The notes under the pieces: generated by a model
Database searches by the model: none
What the model saw: only the letters and a program-made list of their open reading frames with translations
Told to the model about the DNA's origin: nothing
Position numbers and translations under genes: made by a program
Virus record (IMG/VR): IMGVR_UViG_3300010885_051011
Location: 1 to 22,961 of that record
From: a virus
DNA length: 22,961 nt
Direction: 5' to 3' (one strand)
Shown here: piece by piece, positions 551-22,860 of the stretch
How the letters are laid out: the number at the start of each line of letters is the position of its first letter
Numbering within the stretch: position 1 is the stretch's first letter

Positions 551-582
551 GCTAAGCTATTTTGTTAATAACTTTTCAGCTA

Positions 583-605
583 AAAATTTGCATAATGCAA
601 ATTTT
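583..605. promoter_or_regulatory. Perfect 23-bp palindrome, candidate operator
   Basis: The arms AAAATTTGCAT (583-593) and ATGCAAATTTT (595-605) are exact reverse complements around a single central A at 594. The palindrome covers the TTTG (-33-like) element and part of the spacer of the adjacent host-type promoter, so a dimeric regulator bound here would compete with or contact RNA polymerase. The matching region of the second host-type promoter (18378-18400) keeps 8 of the 11 base pairs. No T-tract follows, so it is not a terminator. The binding protein is unknown. Confidence 0.5.
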
Positions 606-618
606 ATAGTTATATTTA
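587..618 (+). promoter_or_regulatory. Bacteroidota-type promoter for the nuclease/clamp-loader genes
   Basis: TTTG at 587-590, a 20-base spacer and TATATTTA at 611-618 fit the Bacteroidota primary-sigma consensus (TTTG at -33, TAnnTTTG at -7), with only the final base of the -7 element differing. The stretch 564-618 aligns without gaps to 18359-18413 at 43 of 55 positions, with identical blocks of 13, 11 and 12 bases. One shared block (GTTAATAACTTTT, 564-576) lies upstream of -33 and could be an activator or UP-type site. The leader to the ATG at 650 is about 25 bases and A-rich. Confidence 0.7.
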
Positions 619-1759: not shown

Positions 1760-1823
1760 TTAAGCAAAAGGGAAAACTATTTGTTTACGCTGAATAATAT
1801 AATAAACCAAAAAAGATAAAAAT

Positions 1824-2267: not shown

Positions 2268-2277
2268 GATATATAAA
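2268..2277 (+). promoter_or_regulatory. Late-type promoter motif GATATATAAA, upstream of the neck gene
   Basis: The exact 10-mer GATATATAAA lies 18 bases before the ATG of the neck gene at 2296. The same 10-mer precedes the sheath gene (6785) and the UVR-motif gene (22424), and a close variant precedes the gp26-like gene (11349). No shared -35 element can be found upstream, as in T4 late promoters (TATAAATA). A transcript starting 7-10 bases downstream would have a leader of only about ten bases. Confidence 0.6.
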
Positions 2278-4287: not shown

Positions 4288-4950
4288 ATGAGAAAAATAC
4301 CAGAAGAGAAAAAAAGGGAGATGGCAATCAAGGACGAACTTGAAACAATGCTATCCGATGGGATTGATGACAATTTAATATTTGATATTGAAAGCATAAA
4401 AAATATACCTGCGCCCAATACAACTTTTATGGACTACGTAAAAGTTAAGGCGTATTCTGATAACAACGCTGACCATATTGTTAATTCAATATCAGTGTTT
4501 TATCTGACTGCTGATATTGTTGATGAGATTGAATATATTAAGCAAAAGATTACCGTAGACAAAATAACATTGTCTAATTTGCTGTTTCAAATGAAAACTG
4601 CAGAACATGCAATTATTAAAATACTTGAAGATATTGACAACGGAAATTTAAGCCCAAGAACTTTTGAAGTTTTGTCTGCATTACAAAGATCTAAAATGGA
4701 TATTGTAAAACAGTTTCAGCATTTTATGGTTGTTATGGAAAACAACTACAAAAGTTTAAAAGAAGACTATAGGGTTAAAAAATCAGATGAGCCTAAACAA
4801 ATTGAAGAATCTGATTATGGCAACGATCCAAACGCTAATTATCAAATGAGAGGCACCCGCCAACTAATTGAAACTTTAAGAGAAGCTGTTGCTGAAAAGC
4901 GTGCTAGTGCAAATCCAAACGAAATAAAGATAAACCAAGATGTCAAGTAG
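4288..4950 (+). CDS. Probable small terminase subunit (gp16 position)
   Basis: This is a 220-residue, largely helical protein. The N-terminus is charged, the centre (about 70-155) is a long helical stretch suited to the oligomerising core of small terminases, and the C-terminus is polar and probably disordered. T4 gp16 (164 residues) forms a ring that recognises DNA and stimulates the packaging ATPase. I see no diagnostic motif; the call rests mainly on position, since it lies directly before the large terminase and overlaps its start by 11 bases, in the T4 order neck-16-17-18-19. It starts 3 bases after the neck gene stop, with no Shine-Dalgarno, so translational coupling is likely. It could instead be an unrelated head-completion protein. 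Confidence 0.5.
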   Translation: MRKIPEEKKREMAIKDELETMLSDGIDDNLIFDIESIKNIPAPNTTFMDYVKVKAYSDNNADHIVNSISVFYLTADIVDEIEYIKQKITVDKITLSNLLFQMKTAEHAIIKILEDIDNGNLSPRTFEVLSALQRSKMDIVKQFQHFMVVMENNYKSLKEDYRVKKSDEPKQIEESDYGNDPNANYQMRGTRQLIETLREAVAEKRASANPNEIKINQDVK

Positions 4951-6751
4951 AGGGAAAATTTGGAATAGCAAAAAGATCACAGAAGAGATTGATAAAATAG
5001 AGCGTGGACTAATTGCTGACTATTCTCCATTTTTTGACGGCAAAATTGACATGAAGGCGCCTGATATTGTGTATGAATACACAAAGGAAGAGCTTGAAGA
5101 ATTGGCTAGATGCGCATCGGATGTGGTTTATTTTGGTAATAACTATTGTTTTTCAATGACAGACGAAGGTATTCGTAAAATTGAACTGCGGCCGTACCAA
5201 GAAGAAATGCTATCTGCTTTCCAAGATAACCGATTCGTTGTTATGCTTGCCAGCCGGCAAATTGGTAAGACGGTGACTTCTTCCATCTTCATTGCTTGGT
5301 ATCTTTGTTTTCACAGCGATAGAAATATCATGGTTGTGGCAAATAAGCTGCAAACAACCAGCGAAATTGTAGATAAAATTAGAACGGTTCTAAAGAACCT
5401 TCCGTTTTTTATGAAGCCTGGTATCTCAGCAGGCGGCGTAACTGGTATGAGATTTGATAACGGCTGCCGTCTATTTTCTCAAGCAACAACAAAAACAGCT
5501 GCTATTGGTTTTACAATACATTTATTGTTTGCTGATGAGTTTGCGCATATTCACCCTAACTTCTTATTGCCGTTCTACCGATCAATATATCCAACGTTAT
5601 CTTCATCACAAGTATCAAGAATGATTATTTGTTCCACACCAAATGGAATGAATCTCTTTTATGAAATATATAGTGGTGCAATAGAAAAGAGAAACAATTA
5701 TGCTCCTATCCGTGTTGACTGGTGGCAGGTTCCTGGCAGAGATGAGGATTGGAAACAGAGAGAAATTGCAAATTTAGGTTCAGAAGAATTATTTAACCAA
5801 GAATACGGAAACCAATTCTTAGCGTCTTCAAGACTTTTATTTGATTCAAATACTCTAATGCTGATGAAAAGAGTGTGCAAAGAATTTGTATGTAAAGAAA
5901 CCGATACATTTTTAGATTATCCAAATGAAAATAATTGCCTAAAGTGGCTGCCTTCTTTTGACCCAGGTGATACACAAAAGACAGATCATTTTGTATTTGC
6001 TGTAGACATTGGAGACGGAGTTGGCCGGGATTATTCAATTATTAATATATTTAATGTAATACCGCAATCTGTAGCATCTATAAGAAGCATTAAAAATTAT
6101 GAAGACGAATCAAGTTTCTTTAGGCTAAACCAAGTAGGGCTATTTAGATCTAACACTCATTCAGTTGAAGAATTATCAAAAGTACTTGAGTTACTTGTAT
6201 TTGATCTTTTTTTGCCTGAGCAATGTAAGATCGTTCTTGAGATAAATTACAAAGGAAATTTAGTGTATGAAAAGCTGTCAAAGAACCGCGACTTTTATCC
6301 GGAAATTTTCTTGCATACAAAACATTCAATTGCAAATGATAGTCTAAAGTTAGGAGTTAAGATCCAAAAAGATAACCGAGAAATATATTGCCGTGAATTA
6401 AGAAACCTGGTTCGTAACAAAAAACTAATAGTAAATGAGTCTAGGACATTTGATGAATTGGCTTCTTTTGGTATTAATTCAGTTGGACGATACGAATCTC
6501 AATTGGCAAATGACGATATTGCAATGTCTTGTGTTAATTTAGTTGCTCTATATAATAATGAAGACTTTAACTATATAATTGAGGAAATATACGATGACAT
6601 ACCGCAAAAATATAAAACTGCAATAGAAAACCAAATGTTGGTTGGTGAAGAAAGCGATTCTGACTATACTGAAATTTTTAAAGTTATAGGAAACATGGAA
6701 AAAGAAGGATTTCCACAAAATTCAAATTTTAAGTCAAGCTATAATAGATAA
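4940..6751 (+). CDS. terL: Terminase large subunit (T4 gp17-like)
   Basis: This is the DNA-packaging motor ATPase and headful nuclease, 603 residues, close to T4 gp17 (610). ATPase motifs: an adenine-binding Q in RPYQEEM (84-90), Walker A ASRQIGKT (104-111), Walker B LLFADE with the catalytic E200 (195-200), and motif III CSTPNG (231-236). The nuclease is an RNase H fold with acidic residues D356 (FAVDIGDG), E434 (VLEINYKG) and D525/D526 (ANDDIAMS). It docks on the portal and pumps DNA into the prohead using ATP. The ATG at 4940 overlaps the upstream gene by 11 bases. The C-terminal tail after residue 565 is acidic then polar. A small hairpin and a late-type promoter motif follow. All key residues are present, so it should be functional. 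Confidence 0.96.
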   Translation: MSSRGKIWNSKKITEEIDKIERGLIADYSPFFDGKIDMKAPDIVYEYTKEELEELARCASDVVYFGNNYCFSMTDEGIRKIELRPYQEEMLSAFQDNRFVVMLASRQIGKTVTSSIFIAWYLCFHSDRNIMVVANKLQTTSEIVDKIRTVLKNLPFFMKPGISAGGVTGMRFDNGCRLFSQATTKTAAIGFTIHLLFADEFAHIHPNFLLPFYRSIYPTLSSSQVSRMIICSTPNGMNLFYEIYSGAIEKRNNYAPIRVDWWQVPGRDEDWKQREIANLGSEELFNQEYGNQFLASSRLLFDSNTLMLMKRVCKEFVCKETDTFLDYPNENNCLKWLPSFDPGDTQKTDHFVFAVDIGDGVGRDYSIINIFNVIPQSVASIRSIKNYEDESSFFRLNQVGLFRSNTHSVEELSKVLELLVFDLFLPEQCKIVLEINYKGNLVYEKLSKNRDFYPEIFLHTKHSIANDSLKLGVKIQKDNREIYCRELRNLVRNKKLIVNESRTFDELASFGINSVGRYESQLANDDIAMSCVNLVALYNNEDFNYIIEEIYDDIPQKYKTAIENQMLVGEESDSDYTEIFKVIGNMEKEGFPQNSNFKSSYNR

Positions 6752-6767
6752 CACATTATTGCAAAAA

Positions 6768-6785
6768 CTATGATTATTTTCATAG
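6768..6785 (+). other. Small hairpin abutting the sheath promoter motif
   Basis: CTATGA (6768-6773) and TCATAG (6780-6785) form a 6-bp stem with a TTATTT loop. The last G is also the first base of the GATATATAAA motif. It is too short and AT-rich for a convincing terminator. It might modulate the promoter or be chance. Confidence 0.3.
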
Positions 6786-6794
6786 ATATATAAA
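6785..6794 (+). promoter_or_regulatory. Late-type promoter motif GATATATAAA, upstream of the sheath gene
   Basis: This is an exact copy of the 10-mer seen at 2268 and 22424, in the 82-base gap between the terminase and sheath genes. It lies 39 bases before the ATG, the longest leader of the set; the leader is almost pure A with scattered G, suited to strong non-Shine-Dalgarno initiation. The unit it would drive (sheath, tube) ends at the terminator at 11290-11318. Confidence 0.6.
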
Positions 6795-6833
6795 GTAAAT
6801 AAAATATAAAAAGAAAAATAACTAAAAAGCAGA

Positions 6834-9800
6834 ATGGCTAAAATCACACTTGATCTTAACAGGTTTAAAGCCTCTGGTGTCTACACTATTGAGTTTGATG
6901 CTTCAGAAAGAATTGTTGTATCTACGCAGACCATACGTCTAGTTGTAGGTTTTTCTAGAAAAGGACCTTTCAACGCTCCTGTATTTTTACGCGATGTATC
7001 AACTTCACGTAAAGTATTTGGCGGAGTTGATAATTTTCTTGAAACCCGTGGATCATTTTTTCACAGAGCATTAGAAACATGTTTACAAACAGCACCGGTA
7101 TTTGGTTTAAATTTATTACCACTAAATAATGCACCAGTAAATGAAGGGGGCGATGCAGTAGATTATCGTTCATTTGGACTGGCGGCAAACGAATCTAACG
7201 GTTTAGTTAGCAAAGCATTGCTTTCATCATTCTACAATAAAGAACGTTTTTGGTTCCCAGATGAAGCTTATTTACAAGCAACTGTAGATAATAAGCCAGT
7301 TGATGCCGGCCGTTTATTTAACTTTGTTAATCTTGGTCAAGAAGTACAAAGTATAATTATTCGCAAGTCAGAAAACGCTTCATTATATAATGTTACAGCT
7401 AACGATTATTATGGTAGAGGCAATGTTCCTGCTTACATTAATCCAACTGATTATGTGTCAGATTATTTTGTAGACATTTATGTAGTAAAAGGCGATTGGA
7501 CAAATCTTAGAGCGCTTTCACAGGACCCTCTATATTCAAAATATTTTGATTTAAGAGGAGTTATTAAAAGTAAGTTCTTTGAATTCTTAGGTCTTAATGA
7601 TGTAACATTAACCGCTTCATTCACTGGAGCAATTATACCTGATTTTATTGATAACAACGGGTCAAACCAATCTATCGATGTAATTGTAAACTCAGCAGTT
7701 GCAATAACTGGTATTTTCTGTAATCTAAACAAAGAAAAGTTTGACGATTACGTAAATTCTAAGTATAAAGTTGATATGCTTGGAAACAGCTTAATTGATA
7801 CAACTGATGATATTATTGATTTTTTATCATACAATACACCAATCAAGGCTACATTAACTGCAACCGGTTTAAAGACCTTAACTGCAACAACGCAAACAAC
7901 TTCAGCTACTTCACCAATAGTTTATTTTAAATCGTATCCGTACGGTGGAGACTCTGGCAAATTTAATAACGTTTTAGTAATACCTAAACCGTATCCGTCT
8001 GACACTACTTTTACAGTAGCAATGTATAATGCATTAGTTACATCGCTTACAACAAATTCTTTAATCAAAACTGAAGGTACTAGTACATTTTTAAATTCAA
8101 TGATGCCTACTGATTTTGTTAAAGTTGACAATATAGTAGACACAGGAAGTTCTTTAGAAATAAAATTAAGTAACCCTTTACAAAGTAATGTGAGCTATAC
8201 CTCTGCAACGGGATATTGGAATGGAACTATTAATACAACAGCGGCTAATTCAGTCCCAAGCACAGCTAACGTAATTGCAGTAACAGATTTCCCTACTGGC
8301 GGGGCAACTGCTGTTGCTGCTGGCGATATTATTTTAATTGAGGCGCCTGGCTATGCTAAGTATTTTGGCGTTAGCGGTGCAGCAAGTGCTGGCGGAGTTA
8401 CTACAATCACAGTTAAAGGCACAGGAAACATAGCTGGCGCAAATCCTGCATCTAAATTCCTTGACAAATATGGTGCTGTTGGATTTAGTGCTACTGAATT
8501 CTCTTCGTATCAGCAGCCTTCTGATATTAACATTACATTGCTTAAAACTGCAGGGGCAACCGCAAGTTCTCTAGTTCCTAGAGTAGGCGTAGGAGCAACT
8601 GGGTTTAGTTATGTATTAACTCCAAACTTATTGTATTCAAAAGTTAAAGGCTTAGGCCAAACAACAGCATACGAAGCAACTGCCAACCAAGTACAATTGT
8701 ACAATGGAGCTGATTATTCAACAGCTATTGCTGGTACATGGTATTTATTCTCAGGTTCTACTGGCGCTTACGCTTTGTCTGGCGCTGCATTAGGATCTTG
8801 TAGAATTTCTAATACTGGAACAGTTAACCCGTTTAATGGAATAACAGGAAATGTTAAAGTTACTTTACCAGGCGGCCAGAATTTTTATGGATTAATTGGT
8901 AATACAGCTTCAACTATTAACGCAACTACATACAATCTTACAGCGGCTGCCGGATTAGCTAGTATTGCTTCTCTTGCTACATTTGAAGCTTATCCAGGAA
9001 ACAAACTTGCAACTAACATATCTTCAAACCTTGTAATTGATGGCGATAGAATTAAATATGGTTCAGGTTCTTCTCAATTTAATTACATTAATGTCACTCC
9101 TGGTATTAGTCGTGGTACAGATCCTTATAGTTTAATTGCTTATGGCTTAAATGGCGTTAGCGTTGAGCAATATACATCTGACACACTAATAACTCCAGCT
9201 GATACTACTTTTGCTGATGTAAATAATACATACATAGATAGCACAGTATACACCGATGGTAATAATGCAACGACAAACGATGTTGCAGTATATTCTTCTC
9301 TTGCTAAAAATATCAGTGAGCAGATTGATATAGAGTCTCCTGGTATTTATGGAGGAGGAAAGAAATTTAAACTTAATTTAACTAATTCAGCAAAATTAAA
9401 TGTTGGCGACTATGTTAAAAATGATAATGTTTCTAACCCTACACTTACTAGAATAATAACCAAGGTTAAAAAATTAGATACATTAACTGGCCTACCATTT
9501 TATGAATACACGGTTCTTGTAACTCCTGGAGTTGATAACTCTACAGGCACTCCAAGAATTACTAAGTTTTCTCCAATTGAATTGTTCTGTGATCGTTACC
9601 AATTTACTAACCTATCAGGGTTTAAGTTAACCGATTATCATTTGCCTGGAACTCCAGCGCAGCTTGAAAAAATCTATGGCGTTCTTGAAAACACTAATTT
9701 ATCAACTACATTAGCTGATAAGGATGTAATTCAATTTAGATATATTGTAGATACATTTAACGGTGGTCTTTTACCTGGTATGGGTCCTAAGCAATACTTA

Positions 9801-10664
9801 AGCCGATTAGCAATGAATCGTCAGAAATGCCTGGCGTTGCTAAATGCTCCGTCTATTGCAGAATTTACTAACTCAACAGATCCAAGATTTACTGAGCAAC
9901 CTGATGCAGCAGCTGGAAATCCAAAACCTGTATTAAACACTGCTTATATCGCAGAAGGTGGCAATCTTTCTCTAGGACCATCATATACTTGGGGTTTACC
10001 TAGCGAAGATCAAGGCGCTAAATTTATTGGGGTATTTTCACCAAATGTTATTGTTCGTGAAAACAACAAAAATATTAGTATTCCACCTGCAGCTGACGTA
10101 TCAAATAATTTTATTCGTAAGTTTGTAAACGGTGAACCTTTTGCAATTGTTGCAGGACCTAGACGTGGTGTTATATCAAATCCAAAGTTTGTAAAAATGG
10201 AATATGATTTCCTACTTAGAGACAGAGAATCATTAGAACCAGCTGGTATTAATCCAATTGTTACTGTTAAGAACGTAGGGCCAATGATTTTTGCAAACCA
10301 AACTGCATATCAAAGAACCTTATCAGCGTTTAACAATCTTCACGTTAGAGACCTTCTTATTACAGTTGAAGATGCTGTTGAGGAAATATTAGGTAACTAT
10401 CTATTTGAATTTAACGATGCATCAACTCGTCTTGAGATTCGCTCAATTGTAGAAACTTATCTTGATACTGTTAGAAACGCAGGTGGTGTATACAATTACG
10501 CTGTTATCATGGATGATACAAATAATACAGATGCTATTATTGACCAAAACTTTGGTATCCTAGATATTGCAATTGAACCATCTCGTGGTATACAGAAATT
10601 TATTAATCGTATTACAATCTTAAAGACTGGTACAATTAGTTCAGGCGGTTTCACAGCAGCTTAA
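6834..10664 (+). CDS. Contractile tail sheath protein (T4 gp18-like) with a giant insertion
   Basis: This is the subunit of the contractile sheath around the tail tube, 1276 residues against about 659 in T4 gp18. The N-terminal part has sheath features: TIRLVVGFSRKGPFN near residue 38 and a D-x-F-V-D-I-Y-V-V-K-G-D-W-x-N stretch near 210-224. The conserved C-terminal sheath domain runs from about 918 to 1276, with SEDQGAKFIGVF, FVNGEPFAIVAGPRRG, VGPMIFANQTAYQRTLSA and HVRDLLITVEDAVEEI in order, and a final region on residues that join neighbouring subunits. Between about 345 and 915 lies a beta-rich segment dominated by Thr, Ser, Gly, Ala and Asn, unlike the core, which likely projects from the sheath surface. 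The tube gene follows after 39 bases with no promoter between. The identity is firm; the role of the insertion is unknown. Confidence 0.93.
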   Translation: MAKITLDLNRFKASGVYTIEFDASERIVVSTQTIRLVVGFSRKGPFNAPVFLRDVSTSRKVFGGVDNFLETRGSFFHRALETCLQTAPVFGLNLLPLNNAPVNEGGDAVDYRSFGLAANESNGLVSKALLSSFYNKERFWFPDEAYLQATVDNKPVDAGRLFNFVNLGQEVQSIIIRKSENASLYNVTANDYYGRGNVPAYINPTDYVSDYFVDIYVVKGDWTNLRALSQDPLYSKYFDLRGVIKSKFFEFLGLNDVTLTASFTGAIIPDFIDNNGSNQSIDVIVNSAVAITGIFCNLNKEKFDDYVNSKYKVDMLGNSLIDTTDDIIDFLSYNTPIKATLTATGLKTLTATTQTTSATSPIVYFKSYPYGGDSGKFNNVLVIPKPYPSDTTFTVAMYNALVTSLTTNSLIKTEGTSTFLNSMMPTDFVKVDNIVDTGSSLEIKLSNPLQSNVSYTSATGYWNGTINTTAANSVPSTANVIAVTDFPTGGATAVAAGDIILIEAPGYAKYFGVSGAASAGGVTTITVKGTGNIAGANPASKFLDKYGAVGFSATEFSSYQQPSDINITLLKTAGATASSLVPRVGVGATGFSYVLTPNLLYSKVKGLGQTTAYEATANQVQLYNGADYSTAIAGTWYLFSGSTGAYALSGAALGSCRISNTGTVNPFNGITGNVKVTLPGGQNFYGLIGNTASTINATTYNLTAAAGLASIASLATFEAYPGNKLATNISSNLVIDGDRIKYGSGSSQFNYINVTPGISRGTDPYSLIAYGLNGVSVEQYTSDTLITPADTTFADVNNTYIDSTVYTDGNNATTNDVAVYSSLAKNISEQIDIESPGIYGGGKKFKLNLTNSAKLNVGDYVKNDNVSNPTLTRIITKVKKLDTLTGLPFYEYTVLVTPGVDNSTGTPRITKFSPIELFCDRYQFTNLSGFKLTDYHLPGTPAQLEKIYGVLENTNLSTTLADKDVIQFRYIVDTFNGGLLPGMGPKQYLSRLAMNRQKCLALLNAPSIAEFTNSTDPRFTEQPDAAAGNPKPVLNTAYIAEGGNLSLGPSYTWGLPSEDQGAKFIGVFSPNVIVRENNKNISIPPAADVSNNFIRKFVNGEPFAIVAGPRRGVISNPKFVKMEYDFLLRDRESLEPAGINPIVTVKNVGPMIFANQTAYQRTLSAFNNLHVRDLLITVEDAVEEILGNYLFEFNDASTRLEIRSIVETYLDTVRNAGGVYNYAVIMDDTNNTDAIIDQNFGILDIAIEPSRGIQKFINRITILKTGTISSGGFTAA

Positions 10665-11318: not shown

Positions 11319-11348
11319 TTAAAATATCAAGAACTAATATAGGTGTGA

Positions 11349-11358
11349 GATATATATT
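11349..11358 (+). promoter_or_regulatory. Late-type promoter motif variant GATATATATT, upstream of the gp26-like gene
   Basis: It shares GATATATA with the exact copies and continues TTAAA. It lies between the terminator and the ATG at 11376, with 17 bases from the motif to the start codon, so the leader must be very short. Since the upstream terminator should block readthrough, a promoter is needed here. Confidence 0.55.
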
Positions 11359-11375
11359 AAAATAAATAAATTCTC

Positions 11376-12341
11376 ATGGAAGAAAATAAAAATCTTATAC
11401 AAGATCTAGAAAAAGAAGCGCAACTATTGGTGCAATCCCAAGAAAACGCTGCACAGACTCCAGTAAGTAATCCTGTGTCAATTGGCAGGGCTCAAAAATT
11501 TCAAGAATACGAAGATAGCAATGATATTCTTGCTGCAGAAGTTGGTTGGAAAAATTTGCCTTTAGACTCTTTGCCTTCACAAGGAATGTTTTATGCAAGT
11601 GATACACAAATAGCAATAAGAGCAGCTACTGTTTCTGAAATTCGTCATTGGTCAACTATAGATGAAAATGATTTATTAAGTCTAGACGATATGCTTAATT
11701 TTATTATTGAGAAATGTTGCAGAATTAAAATACCTGGTAAGCCAGGCAGCTATAAAGATATTAAAGAAATTGATCGTTTCTATCTAATTTTTGCGATTAG
11801 GGATTATACATTTAAGAACGGCGAAAATCGTTTATATGTATCTGCGTTTGACGAAGACGGTTCAGAGCAAAAAGTAGAAGTAACAAAGGACTCTTTGGAT
11901 TATTTTAATCCAGATCCAAAGTTAATGAATTACTATAAGCAAGATGAGCAATGCTTTGATATAGTAATGAAAAACGGTGAAAAATTTAAAATATTTTTGC
12001 CTTCATTAGGGGTTATGTCGTTTATTAAAAACTACATCAAACAAAAGCAGCAGGCAAACCAAAACTTTGATAAAACCTTTATTAAGTACGCGCCGTATTG
12101 TTTTGGTGATTGGAAAACCCTAAACCAAAACTCATACGATAAGGCAGTACAAGATTCATTTACCTGGAGCCTAACAAAAATATCAGTAATTGATAAATTA
12201 GTTGAGCTGTTAGCATCTAGCATTAATCCAACTATTAAGTATCAAACTTCTGGTGGGGGAGAAGCTACAACATCGCTAAACTTTCAAGGGGGAATCAAAA
12301 CTATTTTCCTTATTTCAGATATCTTTGACGAATTGGTTTGA
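11376..12341 (+). CDS. T4 gp26-like baseplate/tail assembly protein
   Basis: This is a 321-residue protein. Residues about 63-118 carry the signature of T4 baseplate gp26-type proteins: LPLDSLPSQGMFY, then IRAATVSEIRHWSTID, then DDMLNFIIEKCCRIK. In T4, gp26 (208 residues) acts in baseplate hub assembly. The first 50 residues are Gln- and Glu-rich and probably flexible. The C-terminal part (about 180-321) is mixed, with a Gly-rich stretch TSGGGEATTS (291-300). Its position just before a small overlapping ORF and the tape measure gene also matches the tail assembly chaperone slot (lambda G/GT), so the two roles may be combined. It stops with TGA at 12339-12341 and overlaps the next frame by up to 62 bases. 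Confidence 0.72.
   Translation: MEENKNLIQDLEKEAQLLVQSQENAAQTPVSNPVSIGRAQKFQEYEDSNDILAAEVGWKNLPLDSLPSQGMFYASDTQIAIRAATVSEIRHWSTIDENDLLSLDDMLNFIIEKCCRIKIPGKPGSYKDIKEIDRFYLIFAIRDYTFKNGENRLYVSAFDEDGSEQKVEVTKDSLDYFNPDPKLMNYYKQDEQCFDIVMKNGEKFKIFLPSLGVMSFIKNYIKQKQQANQNFDKTFIKYAPYCFGDWKTLNQNSYDKAVQDSFTWSLTKISVIDKLVELLASSINPTIKYQTSGGGEATTSLNFQGGIKTIFLISDIFDELV
12288..12292 (+). other. Candidate programmed frameshift site (G5 run)
   Basis: The zero frame reads CAA GGG GGA ATC over a run of five G. A +1 slip (GGG re-pairing one base on), or an equivalent -2 slip, enters the frame of the downstream ORF, which is open from 12280 after its TAA at 12277-12279. A second possible site is GTT TGA at 12336-12341, where a +1 shift at the stop codon reads on as TTT GAT. 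No clear stimulatory stem-loop was seen. Confidence 0.35.
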
Positions 12342-16957: not shown

Positions 16958-16967
16958 TTTATATATC
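16958..16967 (-). promoter_or_regulatory. GATATATAAA on the minus strand
   Basis: The + strand reads TTTATATATC here, the exact complement of the late-type 10-mer. If active, it would transcribe leftward through the inverted repeat and antisense to the two small genes before it. No convincing minus-strand gene follows; a 28-codon ORF begins inside the motif itself and would not be in the transcript. It may be chance. Confidence 0.25.
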
Positions 16968-17023
16968 TAAAAGGGCAAGAACTACTTCCAATTACCTGAA
17001 TATAAAGTAAAACCTGTATATTT

Positions 17024-17287
17024 ATGCTAGAACCGCAGAAAAAAATAGAAATGCTAAAAAATAAGATGCAAGAGTCTAGAAAAACGCTAGATGATGACAA
17101 AACTTCTTCTAATCCTGTAGCCACTGCATTTGCTGCATTAATATTGTATGTATTAAGAATTTTCCTTTTTTATTATGCTATAAATGTTGTTTTAGATAAA
17201 TTTAAGTTTGAGAGCTTTTCATTCTTAGAATGCTTTTTAATTTTTGCTGCAATTGTTGGAATCTGTAGATCGGCAGCTAAACAATAA
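17024..17287 (+). CDS. Small two-helix membrane protein
   Basis: This is an 87-residue protein that I do not recognise. Residues 1-30 are a charged, cytoplasmic-looking helix (Lys- and Glu-rich). Membrane segment 1 is about 32-57 (ATAFAALILYVLRIFLFYY) and segment 2 about 64-82 (FLECFLIFAAIVGI), joined by a short LDKFKF loop, which suggests both ends in the cytoplasm. Two membrane helices in a small phage protein raise the idea of a holin or superinfection factor, but no endolysin gene is nearby, so this is only a possibility. The guanylate-kinase-like gene starts 4 bases after its stop. The upstream leader is AT-rich. Confidence 0.6.
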   Translation: MLEPQKKIEMLKNKMQESRKTLDDDKTSSNPVATAFAALILYVLRIFLFYYAINVVLDKFKFESFSFLECFLIFAAIVGICRSAAKQ

Positions 17288-17846: not shown

Positions 17847-17899
17847 AAAACTAAATACAATTCCATTAATATAAATTAAAACAACAAAAACAATAAGAT

Positions 17900-18250
17900 A
17901 TGAAACAATACATGGTATCTCCTGAGTTTAAAACTCACGTTACTCGTATCCTCAACACAAACAAATACTCATTAGTATTTCCTTTTATGAACTTGGTAAA
18001 CCGTGATGGTTTTGCGTACACCGAGTTTGAGCTTAATGAGCTTATTCAATTTTTAGGTGAGTTTCCGTACAACGAGGTTGCCGAGTTCTTCTTATTGCTT
18101 CCAACACTAGTTGACGAAAGCGGCGAGACTGTAAGCAATAACGGACTAAGAAACGCTGATGCTCCAACACAGGAAACAAAAGCAGCTGAATCTGACGCAA
18201 TGCATCATAATGATGTAAGAGACGAAATCTTTGTTGAAAGCGAAGCCTAA
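17900..18250 (+). CDS. Hypothetical protein
   Basis: This is a 116-residue protein that I do not recognise. Residues 1-70 look like a small folded helical domain (SPEFKTHVTRILN, FPFMNLVNRDGFAYTEFELNELIQFLGEFPYNEVAEFFLLLP); the tail from about 72 is acidic, polar and probably disordered. There is no membrane segment. The leader is A- and C-rich (aacaacaaaaacaataagatATG). The codon use is slightly more GC-rich than in the structural genes. It is the last gene before the strong terminator at 18278, so it ends a transcription unit. Confidence 0.7.
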   Translation: MKQYMVSPEFKTHVTRILNTNKYSLVFPFMNLVNRDGFAYTEFELNELIQFLGEFPYNEVAEFFLLLPTLVDESGETVSNNGLRNADAPTQETKAAESDAMHHNDVRDEIFVESEA

Positions 18251-18277: not shown

Positions 18278-18309
18278 GAGAAATTGCCTAACGGCAATTT
18301 CTCTTTTTC
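18278..18309 (+). terminator. Intrinsic terminator before the sigma-factor promoter
   Basis: An 11-bp perfect stem, GAGAAATTGCC (18278-18288) and GGCAATTTCTC (18293-18303), with a TAAC loop, is followed by TTTTTCT. It insulates the sigma gene from transcription arriving from the left. Confidence 0.93.
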
Positions 18310-18381
18310 TAAATTTAGAGTGGACTAAGGCGCTGATTACCAGCTTATGAGTTAAGTTGTTAATAACTTTTTTCATAAAAA

Positions 18382-18413
18382 TTTGCTATTGTCAATTTTT
18401 CTAGTTATATTTA
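18382..18413 (+). promoter_or_regulatory. Bacteroidota-type promoter for the phage sigma gene
   Basis: TTTG (18382-18385), 20 bases, then TATATTTA (18406-18413): the same elements and spacing as at 587-618, with 43 of 55 positions identical over 18359-18413. It is placed just after a strong terminator and about 28 bases before the sigma ATG, so sigma expression should depend on it. The dyad overlapping -33 is only partly conserved. Confidence 0.72.
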
Positions 18414-18441
18414 CTATATACAAAATCCAAACATCCAAACA

Positions 18442-19083
18442 ATGGGACTAACTAAGGTAGAAGCAAAAACTAAAAAGACTAAAACAAGTTTACAAGAAAT
18501 TGGCCTTAACTTTTACAAGACCAGGTCTGAGAAAGACTTTACCACTCTATACTATAGGTTATTGCCAGGGATATCTTACGTAACCAGAAAAATAATACCC
18601 GATTACGATGACCGTAGTGAAGTTGTAGCCATTACGTTTGCCAAAGTATGGAGCAAGATTGACCAATATGATCCGTACTGGAATTTCAGCACCTGGGCAT
18701 ACAAAATTGCTCACAACGAATCTTTACTCTTTCTTAGGAAAAAGAAAAATACATATTCATACGAAGGTATGGAGGAAATGGGAATTAACATGGAGTCAAA
18801 ATCGCAGTCCGTTATGTCAGACGCCTTTTGCGATGAGCCTCATATAATAGATACCCTGCATGACGCAGCAGTCTCTACTATCAATATGTTGCCTGATGTA
18901 TACCGTGAAGTTTTATCTCTACGTGAAATTCAAAATAAAAAATACGAGGAGATTGCAGACTTGCTTGGCTGGAAACAAAATACAGTAAGAACCCGTATTC
19001 GCAAAGCGCGTGAATTAGTTCGTGAACACTTATTAAAGAATTCGCCTGAACTAATTAAAGAATATAATAATCAACTTGCATAA
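18442..19083 (+). CDS. Phage-encoded ECF-like sigma-70 family factor
   Basis: This is a 213-residue sigma factor with regions 2 and 4 and little between, the ECF layout. Region 2 (about 33-102) has ITFAKVWSKIDQYDP, then FSTWAYKIAHNESLLFLRKKK-type sequence, the core-binding and -10-recognising helices. Region 4 (about 143-197) has INMLPDVYREVLSLREI, then the helix-turn-helix YEEIADLLGWKQNTVRTRIR. It would replace the host sigma on RNA polymerase and recognise phage promoters, the role of gp55 in T4 late transcription, although this protein is ECF-like rather than gp55-like. It has its own host-type promoter and an insulating terminator upstream. The best candidate target is the GATATATAAA motif before virion genes; that link is inference. 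Confidence 0.88.
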   Translation: MGLTKVEAKTKKTKTSLQEIGLNFYKTRSEKDFTTLYYRLLPGISYVTRKIIPDYDDRSEVVAITFAKVWSKIDQYDPYWNFSTWAYKIAHNESLLFLRKKKNTYSYEGMEEMGINMESKSQSVMSDAFCDEPHIIDTLHDAAVSTINMLPDVYREVLSLREIQNKKYEEIADLLGWKQNTVRTRIRKARELVREHLLKNSPELIKEYNNQLA

Positions 19084-19084
19084 T

Positions 19085-19522
19085 ATGTTTAAATTTAAAA
19101 ACCTTAGAAACCTCTTTATCGATATTAGAAATTTCTTTTACATAAAGGGTGTAATACGTAAGAATAAAGGCACCGCTGACTGGGAACGATTTAATCTAAA
19201 GGTAGACTTTGTCAATCGCATATACACGGTTTTTAATCCATTACCAGCGGACAAAGGAGACTCACCTGATGTATTGGAAATTAAGCTGGGTGAAAGAATG
19301 ATACCGTGTCATAAATACATAACCGATATTGGGCTAAGCGAAGTCATTGCAGTGTCTGGCGAAAAAATACCAAACACAGACTCTTACCTTGTTGTCTACT
19401 ATCCAATATTTAGGTACATATCAACCTGGAAAGTTACGCTTAATTTATTCTATCTTATTCTGCTATTGATACTTTACCCAAGTATTTGGAAAGCTATTAA
19501 TTGGGTTATCAGCTTATTTTAA
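19085..19522 (+). CDS. Membrane-anchored hypothetical protein coupled to the sigma gene
   Basis: This is a 145-residue protein that I do not recognise. The ATG at 19085 is preferred over a TTG at 19076 because it lies one base after the sigma stop codon. Residues 1-112 are soluble and mixed alpha/beta, with a basic N-terminal helix (MFKFKNLRNLFIDIRNFF) and a region of strands (LEIKLGERMIPCHKYI, SYLVVYYPIF). Residues about 116-136 are a membrane helix (VTLNLFYLILLLILY), followed by an amphipathic end. Two Cys/His residues are adjacent (C75-H76). The tight sigma/membrane-protein pairing recalls ECF sigma/anti-sigma operons, though no anti-sigma motif (such as the zinc HxxxCxxC) is seen. Confidence 0.65.
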   Translation: MFKFKNLRNLFIDIRNFFYIKGVIRKNKGTADWERFNLKVDFVNRIYTVFNPLPADKGDSPDVLEIKLGERMIPCHKYITDIGLSEVIAVSGEKIPNTDSYLVVYYPIFRYISTWKVTLNLFYLILLLILYPSIWKAINWVISLF

Positions 19523-22423: not shown

Positions 22424-22433
22424 GATATATAAA
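22424..22433 (+). promoter_or_regulatory. Late-type promoter motif GATATATAAA, upstream of the UVR-motif gene
   Basis: This is an exact copy of the 10-mer at 2268 and 6785, in the 71-base gap before 22453, 19 bases from the ATG. The immediate leader (AAAAAATATCAGATCAGGAG) contains AGGAG, but it abuts the ATG too closely to act as a normal Shine-Dalgarno. Confidence 0.55.
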
Positions 22434-22452: not shown

Positions 22453-22860
22453 ATGGATCGTTATGAAGAAGCAATTGAAGCCGTAATCCAAAGCATAAGC
22501 TGGTCTAAGATTAAAGCATACCATAAAAAAATAAACCTATATTGGGAATTTGAAGAAAACAATTCTATCGTTAAACGAATTCCTAATATTAAAGAACTAC
22601 AAGAAGATATCCGTGGCATATTTAAACATATGTTAGCTAAAGATCTTGACTACATATCTTACGGAAATTGGATTATCTTTTGGGATAGAGAAGAAAGTAT
22701 CGGAGATATAAGAGTTATATTTAGATTAGCTGATTTTATGTTTGAAGAAGACACAGTTTCTCGCAAATCTTTGGAAGTTGCCCTGGATAAGGCTATAGAA
22801 AAAGAAGACTACGAAAAAGCTGCTGAAATAAGAGACGTATTAAATAGCAAAACAAATTAA
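22453..22860 (+). CDS. UVR-motif hypothetical protein
   Basis: This is a 135-residue protein. Residues about 106-133 match the UVR (UvrB/UvrC) motif: SLEVALDKAIEKEDYEKAAE then IRDVL, a helical hairpin that in UvrB and UvrC mediates their contact and is also found in Clp-related and other proteins. The N-terminal part (1-100) is mixed alpha/beta with an aromatic NLYWEFEEN and GNWIIFWDREES, and matches nothing I recognise. No nuclease or helicase domain is present, so it is not UvrB or UvrC; it could bind host UvrB/UvrC or another UVR partner. It has a late-type motif upstream, unlike most host-takeover genes. The next gene begins 12 bases later. Confidence 0.68.
   Translation: MDRYEEAIEAVIQSISWSKIKAYHKKINLYWEFEENNSIVKRIPNIKELQEDIRGIFKHMLAKDLDYISYGNWIIFWDREESIGDIRVIFRLADFMFEEDTVSRKSLEVALDKAIEKEDYEKAAEIRDVLNSKTN

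Follow-up and report, generated by a model that had tools for sequence, protein, structure and literature searches.

The virus fragment analysed here (22,961 bases, hereafter the window) carries a gene for an ECF-like sigma factor, and the question that this locus raises is which class of phage promoters this sigma would read. The initial annotation had assigned it to late transcription, where it would replace a gp55 homologue, within a cascade leading from the host sigma to the phage sigma and on to the virion genes.

The sigma gene and its surroundings

The phage genes of the window include those of a T4-type large terminase, a tail sheath and an Hc2/neck-like protein (Table 1). The virus appears to be a large T4-related phage of Bacteroidota bacteria. 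We searched for the beta subunit of a phage-encoded multisubunit RNA polymerase and obtained no match to PF00562 in 10 contigs; the phage would use the RNA polymerase core of its host.

The sigma gene is indeed of the ECF type. Pfam placed Sigma70_r2 at residues 36–102 and Sigma70_r4_2 at residues 145–191 of the 213-residue protein, and the NCBIfam profile for sigma70-ECF proteins (TIGR02937) gave 76.1 bits against a cut-off of 42.9. The protein thus has regions 2 and 4 joined by a linker and neither region 1 nor region 3. Its closest solved structure in sequence is that of SigW (5wuq, E 1e-14). The presence of region 4 sets it outside the definition of gp55, in which region 2 stands alone. 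Homologues of this sigma were found in 12 of 20 related contigs.

The membrane-anchored protein encoded directly after the sigma gene is a conserved partner. A neighbour of this kind (about 112–152 aa) stood in the same place after seven of the eight ECF genes, and it was kept even where the sigma was only about 37% identical. A Pfam search with the 145-residue protein of the window returned no match. Possibly, this neighbour is a candidate anti-sigma factor.

Table 1. Positions of the genes, promoters and terminator discussed in the text (window coordinates unless a contig is given)
Feature	Position	Strand	Remark
Middle promoter AAAAC-N14-GAATAATATAA before gene at 1824	1773..1802	+	Probable, weak match; orthologues middle in 23/29 distinct upstream regions
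Second early promoter TGTTAATAACTTT-N35-TATATTTA before 5'-exonuclease gene at 650	563..618	+	Sequence; TGTTAATAACTTT at 563-575
Late promoter GATATATA before neck/Hc2-like gene at 2296	2268..2275	+	Exact motif
T4-type large terminase (Terminase_6N)	4940..6751	+	PF03237, E 1e-19
Late promoter GATATATA before tail sheath gene at 6834	6785..6792	+	Exact motif; sheath orthologues 8/13
Tail sheath gene	6834..10664	+	phrog_34521, E 6e-99
Hybrid promoter GAAC-N14-GATATATA before gene at 11376	11331..11356	+	Best conserved hybrid
Middle promoter GAAC-N15-GAATATAA before gene at 17024	16979..17005	+	Sequence
Middle promoter AAAAC-N15-TAATATAA before gene at 17900	17847..17874	+	Orthologues middle in 13/14 distinct upstream regions
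Intrinsic terminator 5' of sigma gene	18278..18308	+	Hairpin GAGAAATTGCC-taac-GGCAATTTCTC-TTTTT, T run
Early promoter upstream box TGTTAATAACTTT of sigma gene	18358..18370	+	Exactly 35 nt before -7 box
Host-type promoter TTTG-N20-TATATTTA of sigma gene	18382..18413	+	TTTG 18382-18385, TATATTTA 18406-18413
ECF sigma factor gene, 213 aa; proposed middle sigma	18442..19083	+	Profile matches
Membrane-anchored 145-aa protein directly 3' of sigma gene	19085..19522	+	Conserved partner
Late promoter GATATATA before UVR-motif gene at 22453	22424..22431	+	Exact motif; 4/5 orthologues
gp55-type protein, 115 aa	L088:98-445		phrog_234 'late sigma transcription factor', E 8e-14

Host-type promoters precede the sigma gene and other presumed early genes

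Both the terminator that precedes the sigma gene and the host-type promoter TTTG-N20-TATATTTA behind it were present as previously described. The earlier description of the promoter had, however, missed the TGTTAATAACTTT box located 35 nt upstream of the -7 box, which is common to the sigma gene and the gene at 650. This arrangement, TGTTAATAACTTT-N35-TAnnTTTR, forms a promoter class in its own right (referred to as early), the third besides the two described below, and it is carried by the sigma gene itself. Among 13 contigs, the offset from TGTTARTAACTTT to TAnnTTTR was exactly 35 nt for 44 of the 52 TAnnTTTR matches behind the box. The -7 box of flavobacterial sigma-A is TAnnTTTG (PMC9723704). 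The early motif preceded six of eight sigma gene orthologues and six of ten orthologues of the NAD-dependent ligase, and was also present before the 5'-exonuclease gene; in a wider set of loci, the sigma gene was early in 12 of 18 distinct upstream regions.

Bacterial genomes, mostly of Bacteroidota (loci L222-L301), show this arrangement too, with TGTTAATAACTTT at exactly 35 nt from TAnnTTTG, and 113 of 120 instances lay outside called genes. As this arrangement is found in Bacteroidota genomes and mostly outside genes, TGTTAATAACTTT looks like a host-type regulatory or promoter box used by the phage. Some of the proteins encoded behind it resemble, by eye, thymidine kinase and ribonucleotide reductase.

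A motif without a -35 element precedes the virion genes

The GATATATAAA motif had been reported at four places in the window. We found it exact on the plus strand at 2268, 6785 and 22424; the site at 11349 reads GATATATATT, and a fourth exact copy, unlisted before, is on the minus strand at 16958-16967 with no minus-strand gene downstream. The latter is probably a chance occurrence, the alternative being an antisense promoter. In the window alone, with up to one mismatch allowed, the motif was found 6 times against 6.15 expected, which is the chance level, and therefore more sequence was needed. The classes were defined on the window and 12 related contigs (44–238 kb), in which simple gene calling gave 1,552 genes.

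Among these 13 contigs, 126 copies of GATATATA were located within 80 nt upstream of a start, compared to 33 in the sense direction inside genes and 6 in antisense. This is the outcome of the motif search across fuller genomes that the initial annotation had named as a check, and it speaks for the motif. The class, referred to as late, was present upstream of 145 of the 1,552 genes, compared to 10.6 in shuffled sequences, 6 on the reverse strand and 2 in coding controls. In almost all contigs, G004 excepted, GATATATA was the top or a near-top enriched 8-mer upstream of genes. Judging from these counts, GATATATA is a real promoter element and more than a chance word.

In an alignment of 128 GATATATA sites, a non-T follows the motif and an A is favoured 12 nt from the G; upstream of the motif there is no information, and a -35 element is absent, as in a promoter that consists of a -10 element alone. 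The distance to the start codon was 20–25 nt at many sites. These sites thus share with the T4 late promoters an 8-bp TATA-like box and the lack of a -35 element. The motif preceded the sheath, neck/Hc2, gp15-like and portal genes and a long gene beside the sheath module, which bears out the earlier suggestion of a separate -35-less motif at virion genes. In the wider locus set, the sheath gene was late in 22 of 42 distinct upstream regions. At one locus (G001:C1:133074 and 133100), two late motifs lying between divergent genes point apart, in keeping with directional promoters, and the same layout recurs in G002 at 165632/165664. The late box of T4 itself, TATAAATA, was tried as a candidate and was not enriched upstream of genes (31 upstream, 73 antisense).

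A gp55 homologue is encoded in the same phages

Every examined contig that holds the respective region encodes a gp55 homologue, a small protein with sigma region 2 only. The contig L088, 97–98% identical to the window over 7.7 kb, reaches 4.7 kb further upstream; there, this gene is located 4.3 kb ahead of window position 1, and a head-closure gene comes after it. The gp55 family profile scored 24–25 bits against T4 gp55. The protein at L088:98-445 therefore has what defines a gp55, namely region 2, no region 4 and homology to T4 gp55. In T4, gp55 reads late promoters that consist of an 8-bp box and lack a -35 element, and no equivalent of sigma region 4 is needed there (PMC2988020). Since GATATATA has no -35 element and gp55 has no region 4, GATATATA fits gp55 better than it fits the ECF sigma. 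No promoter was identified for the gp55 gene itself. A gp45-type clamp was also searched for, and PF09116 had no match in 10 contigs.

A bipartite promoter class precedes replication and nucleotide genes

The second 8-mer enriched upstream of genes was GAATATAA. In 41 of 47 upstream sites, an AAC triplet ended precisely 14 or 15 nt ahead of this 8-mer, and any other spacing occurred at 0–3 sites; for GAATATAA copies inside genes, the AAC spacing was flat and without a peak. AAC was counted at every distance, and its spacing played no part in choosing the GAATATAA sites. The resulting class, RRAACY-N14/15-GAATATAA (consensus RRAACYW-N-GAATATAA; referred to as middle), was found at 56 of the 1,552 genes; shuffling of the upstream regions gave 5.0, the reverse strand 3 and the coding controls 1. 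The -35 elements of ECF sigmas usually have AAC at their core, as in the promoters of SigW and RpoE.

The middle motif was located before the gene of a gp44-like clamp loader (9 of 12 orthologues), the large subunit of topoisomerase II (9 of 11) and the gp41 helicase (6 of 11), and also before those of the topoisomerase II medium subunit, the UvsW helicase, dUTPase and a MazG-like protein. The clamp loader gene was middle in 16 of 18 distinct upstream regions of the wider locus set. Orthologous genes retain the same promoter class, with agreement in 347 of 381 labelled pairs, compared to a mean of 152 and a maximum of 191 in 2000 shuffles.

We made two further observations in upstream regions. 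In the middle promoter of the clamp loader, the sequence of the spacer (AACTAAGTATACT; for example in L117, L101 and L056) is conserved beyond the needs of spacing, and is a possible extra regulatory site. In L088, an extra gene of 103 aa is present at 6541-6885; the window is without it at 1802-1824, and the region upstream of the gene at 1824 is replaced.

Related phages with a diverged sigma or without it

Two contigs, G003 and G012, differ from the others in the middle class: its -10 becomes TAATATAA, and GATATATA is unchanged. The ECF sigma of G012 is 38% identical to that of the window, and G003 is a close relative of G012 that is cut before the sigma gene. This shift of the middle -10 alongside a diverged ECF sigma, with GATATATA constant, speaks for the ECF sigma as the one that would read the middle class.

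Two phages, G004 (146 kb) and Tenacibaculum phage PTm1 (complete, 225 kb), encode gp55; in both, no ECF homologue was found and the middle class was not above background. In G004, GGAATARATA with no evident -35 element preceded the sheath, portal and gp15-like genes (10 upstream, 0 sense, 2 antisense). In PTm1, RATACATA was located before the capsid and sheath genes, with 20 of 56 copies upstream, a weaker and moderately enriched motif. The exact GATATATA was absent upstream of genes in both; it occurred only in the ECF-bearing lineage, or in contigs cut near the expected ECF position. As the late-type sequences of G004 and PTm1 differ from GATATATA, gp55 would be tied to the class of motif and not to its exact letters. 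Consistent with the presence of gp55 and of -35-less late-type motifs in these ECF-less phages, GATATATA is best read as a gp55 late promoter.

Among more distant phages, LR745206 (635 kb, very distant) has both sigmas. Its TAATATATA class counts 80 copies upstream, 10 in sense and 9 in antisense, and ATATAA stands at AAC+16/17, which corresponds to the AAC spacing of the middle class, in 15 cases against 4.4. No middle motif was found in the 51-kb contig G013, which holds few middle genes and whose sigma is about 37% identical, and no clear motif in 50 kb of the crAss phage cr109_1, in which an ECF homologue is present.

A three-wave model and its alternatives

We consider it probable that transcription in these phages runs in three waves, from the host sigma through the ECF sigma to gp55. 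Host sigma-A would start the early genes (ECF sigma, 5'-exonuclease and DNA ligase) from TGTTAATAACTTT-N35-TAnnTTTR. The ECF sigma, together with the core enzyme, would then start the replication and nucleotide genes from RRAACY-N14/15-GAATATAA, its region 4 reading the AAC of the -35 element, and a gp55-type sigma without region 4 would start the virion genes from the -35-less GATATATA, as in T4. The sigmas are assigned to the classes because the -35-bearing class pairs with the sigma that has region 4, and the -35-less class with the one that has none. The three motif classes, with their rigid spacing, their conservation between orthologues and the functions downstream, and both sigma genes are present in the contigs; to these the model would add the timing and the pairing of protein with motif. 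Its second step, the ECF sigma as the middle factor, is one that we infer, and among the three it is the best supported by promoter anatomy.

Of the cascade proposed earlier, the start at the host-type promoter of the sigma gene stands; the ECF step is more likely middle, and the late one gp55. The substitution of the ECF sigma for gp55 was not supported, with a gp55 homologue present and the bipartite AAC class at replication genes, and the role of the window sigma is most likely middle, not late. An ECF sigma that reads GATATATA as the late factor would account for the restriction of this motif to ECF-bearing genomes or contigs cut near the ECF locus, for the absence of its exact letters upstream of genes in G004 and PTm1, and for the AAC at 14 nt at some GATATATA sites. 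We nevertheless regard it as unlikely, given that gp55 is encoded throughout, including beside the window, that the 128 GATATATA sites carry no -35 information and the ECF-type AAC belongs to the other class, and that the corresponding genes of ECF-less phages retain -35-less late-type motifs, with a clear signal in G004.

The middle class could also be MotA-like, with a phage activator on the AAC box, host sigma-A on the -10 and the ECF sigma employed elsewhere. T4 provides the precedent, since its middle transcription depends on MotA and AsiA with the host sigma70 (PMC6024815). Here, however, GAATATAA is unlike the flavobacterial sigma-A box TAnnTTTG (PMC9723704), the conserved upstream part covers only about 7 bases at a fixed spacing, as for an ECF region 4, and the -10 differs where the ECF sigma has diverged (G003 and G012), so that an activator of this kind seems improbable to us. 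Some phage sigmas may redirect host genes, for example the sporulation-like sigmas of Bacillota phages (PMC9429907), and the window sigma might likewise be an auxiliary gene that acts on host genes instead of phage genes. Its co-occurrence with a phage-wide promoter class of the ECF type and its conserved place near the virion module make this very unlikely.

Relation to known systems

The three-wave model has a parallel in the sigma cascade of SPO1 (gp28 and gp34; PMC9429907), where the host sigma is followed by a phage middle sigma (gp28) and then a phage late sigma (gp34). The difference is that here, in a Bacteroidota phage related to T4, an ECF-type middle sigma and a gp55-type late sigma are proposed. 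With T4 late transcription (gp55, gp33 and gp45), the phages share a gp55-family sigma without region 4 and an 8-bp TATA-like box without a -35 element at virion genes, but their box reads GATATATA, with TAATATATA or GGAATARATA in relatives, and the Pfam search revealed no gp45-type clamp. T4 also resembles these phages in having a separate promoter class for replication genes, although it employs MotA/AsiA, an activator on the host sigma, and a dedicated sigma with its own -35 and -10 is proposed here. The bacterial ECF sigmas SigW and RpoE have regions 2 and 4 only, as does the window sigma, and an AAC-type -35, as in the class proposed for it; the -10 of that class is the AT-rich GAATATAA and not a CGT-type box, and no known anti-sigma was identified.

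The group 2 jumbo phages, which include PTm1 and the Lak phages, have been reported to carry two sigma types and a gp33 orthologue (PMC7824862). The present phages belong to the same broad group; the passages of that survey on sigma factors give neither promoter classes nor separate roles for the two types. In the open-access literature, we found nothing relevant on GATATATA as a phage promoter, on promoter motifs of Bacteroidota jumbo phages or on crAss-phage transcription, and no mapped phage promoters for large Bacteroidota phages of the present group. Within this scope, an ECF sigma as the proposed middle factor of a T4-related phage, and the promoter code itself, appear to be new.

The model offers a complete and testable three-phase promoter code for widespread large phages of Bacteroidota. 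If true, a dedicated ECF sigma would be a new route to the middle phase in T4-related phages, where T4 uses MotA/AsiA, and the roles of the two sigma types known from the survey of such phages would be separated. The promoter classes could be used to predict the timing of genes from sequence alone. PTm1 is a natural ECF-free control for which a cultured host exists.

Hybrid sites and a second ECF-like sigma

At some starts the two phage-type classes are combined. AAC was located 14 nt upstream at 10 of 129 late sites, and orthologues of the gene at 11376 carried the middle and late labels together in 16 of 34 distinct upstream regions. Such hybrid sites, which have the ECF -35 as well as the gp55 box, may be used by both sigmas, and the ECF sigma could act at these late sites too. 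Tentatively, and with somewhat more doubt than conviction, we propose that the ECF sigma replaced MotA/AsiA as the middle switch and that hybrid GAAC-N14-GATATATA sites can pass from the middle sigma to the late one. If this is true, the handover would take place at one start site.

One relative, G002, encodes a second, divergent ECF-like sigma (G002:C1:192179-192796; L160). A middle-type promoter, AAC-N-GAATATAA, precedes the gene of this second sigma, and this suggests a further step of the cascade.
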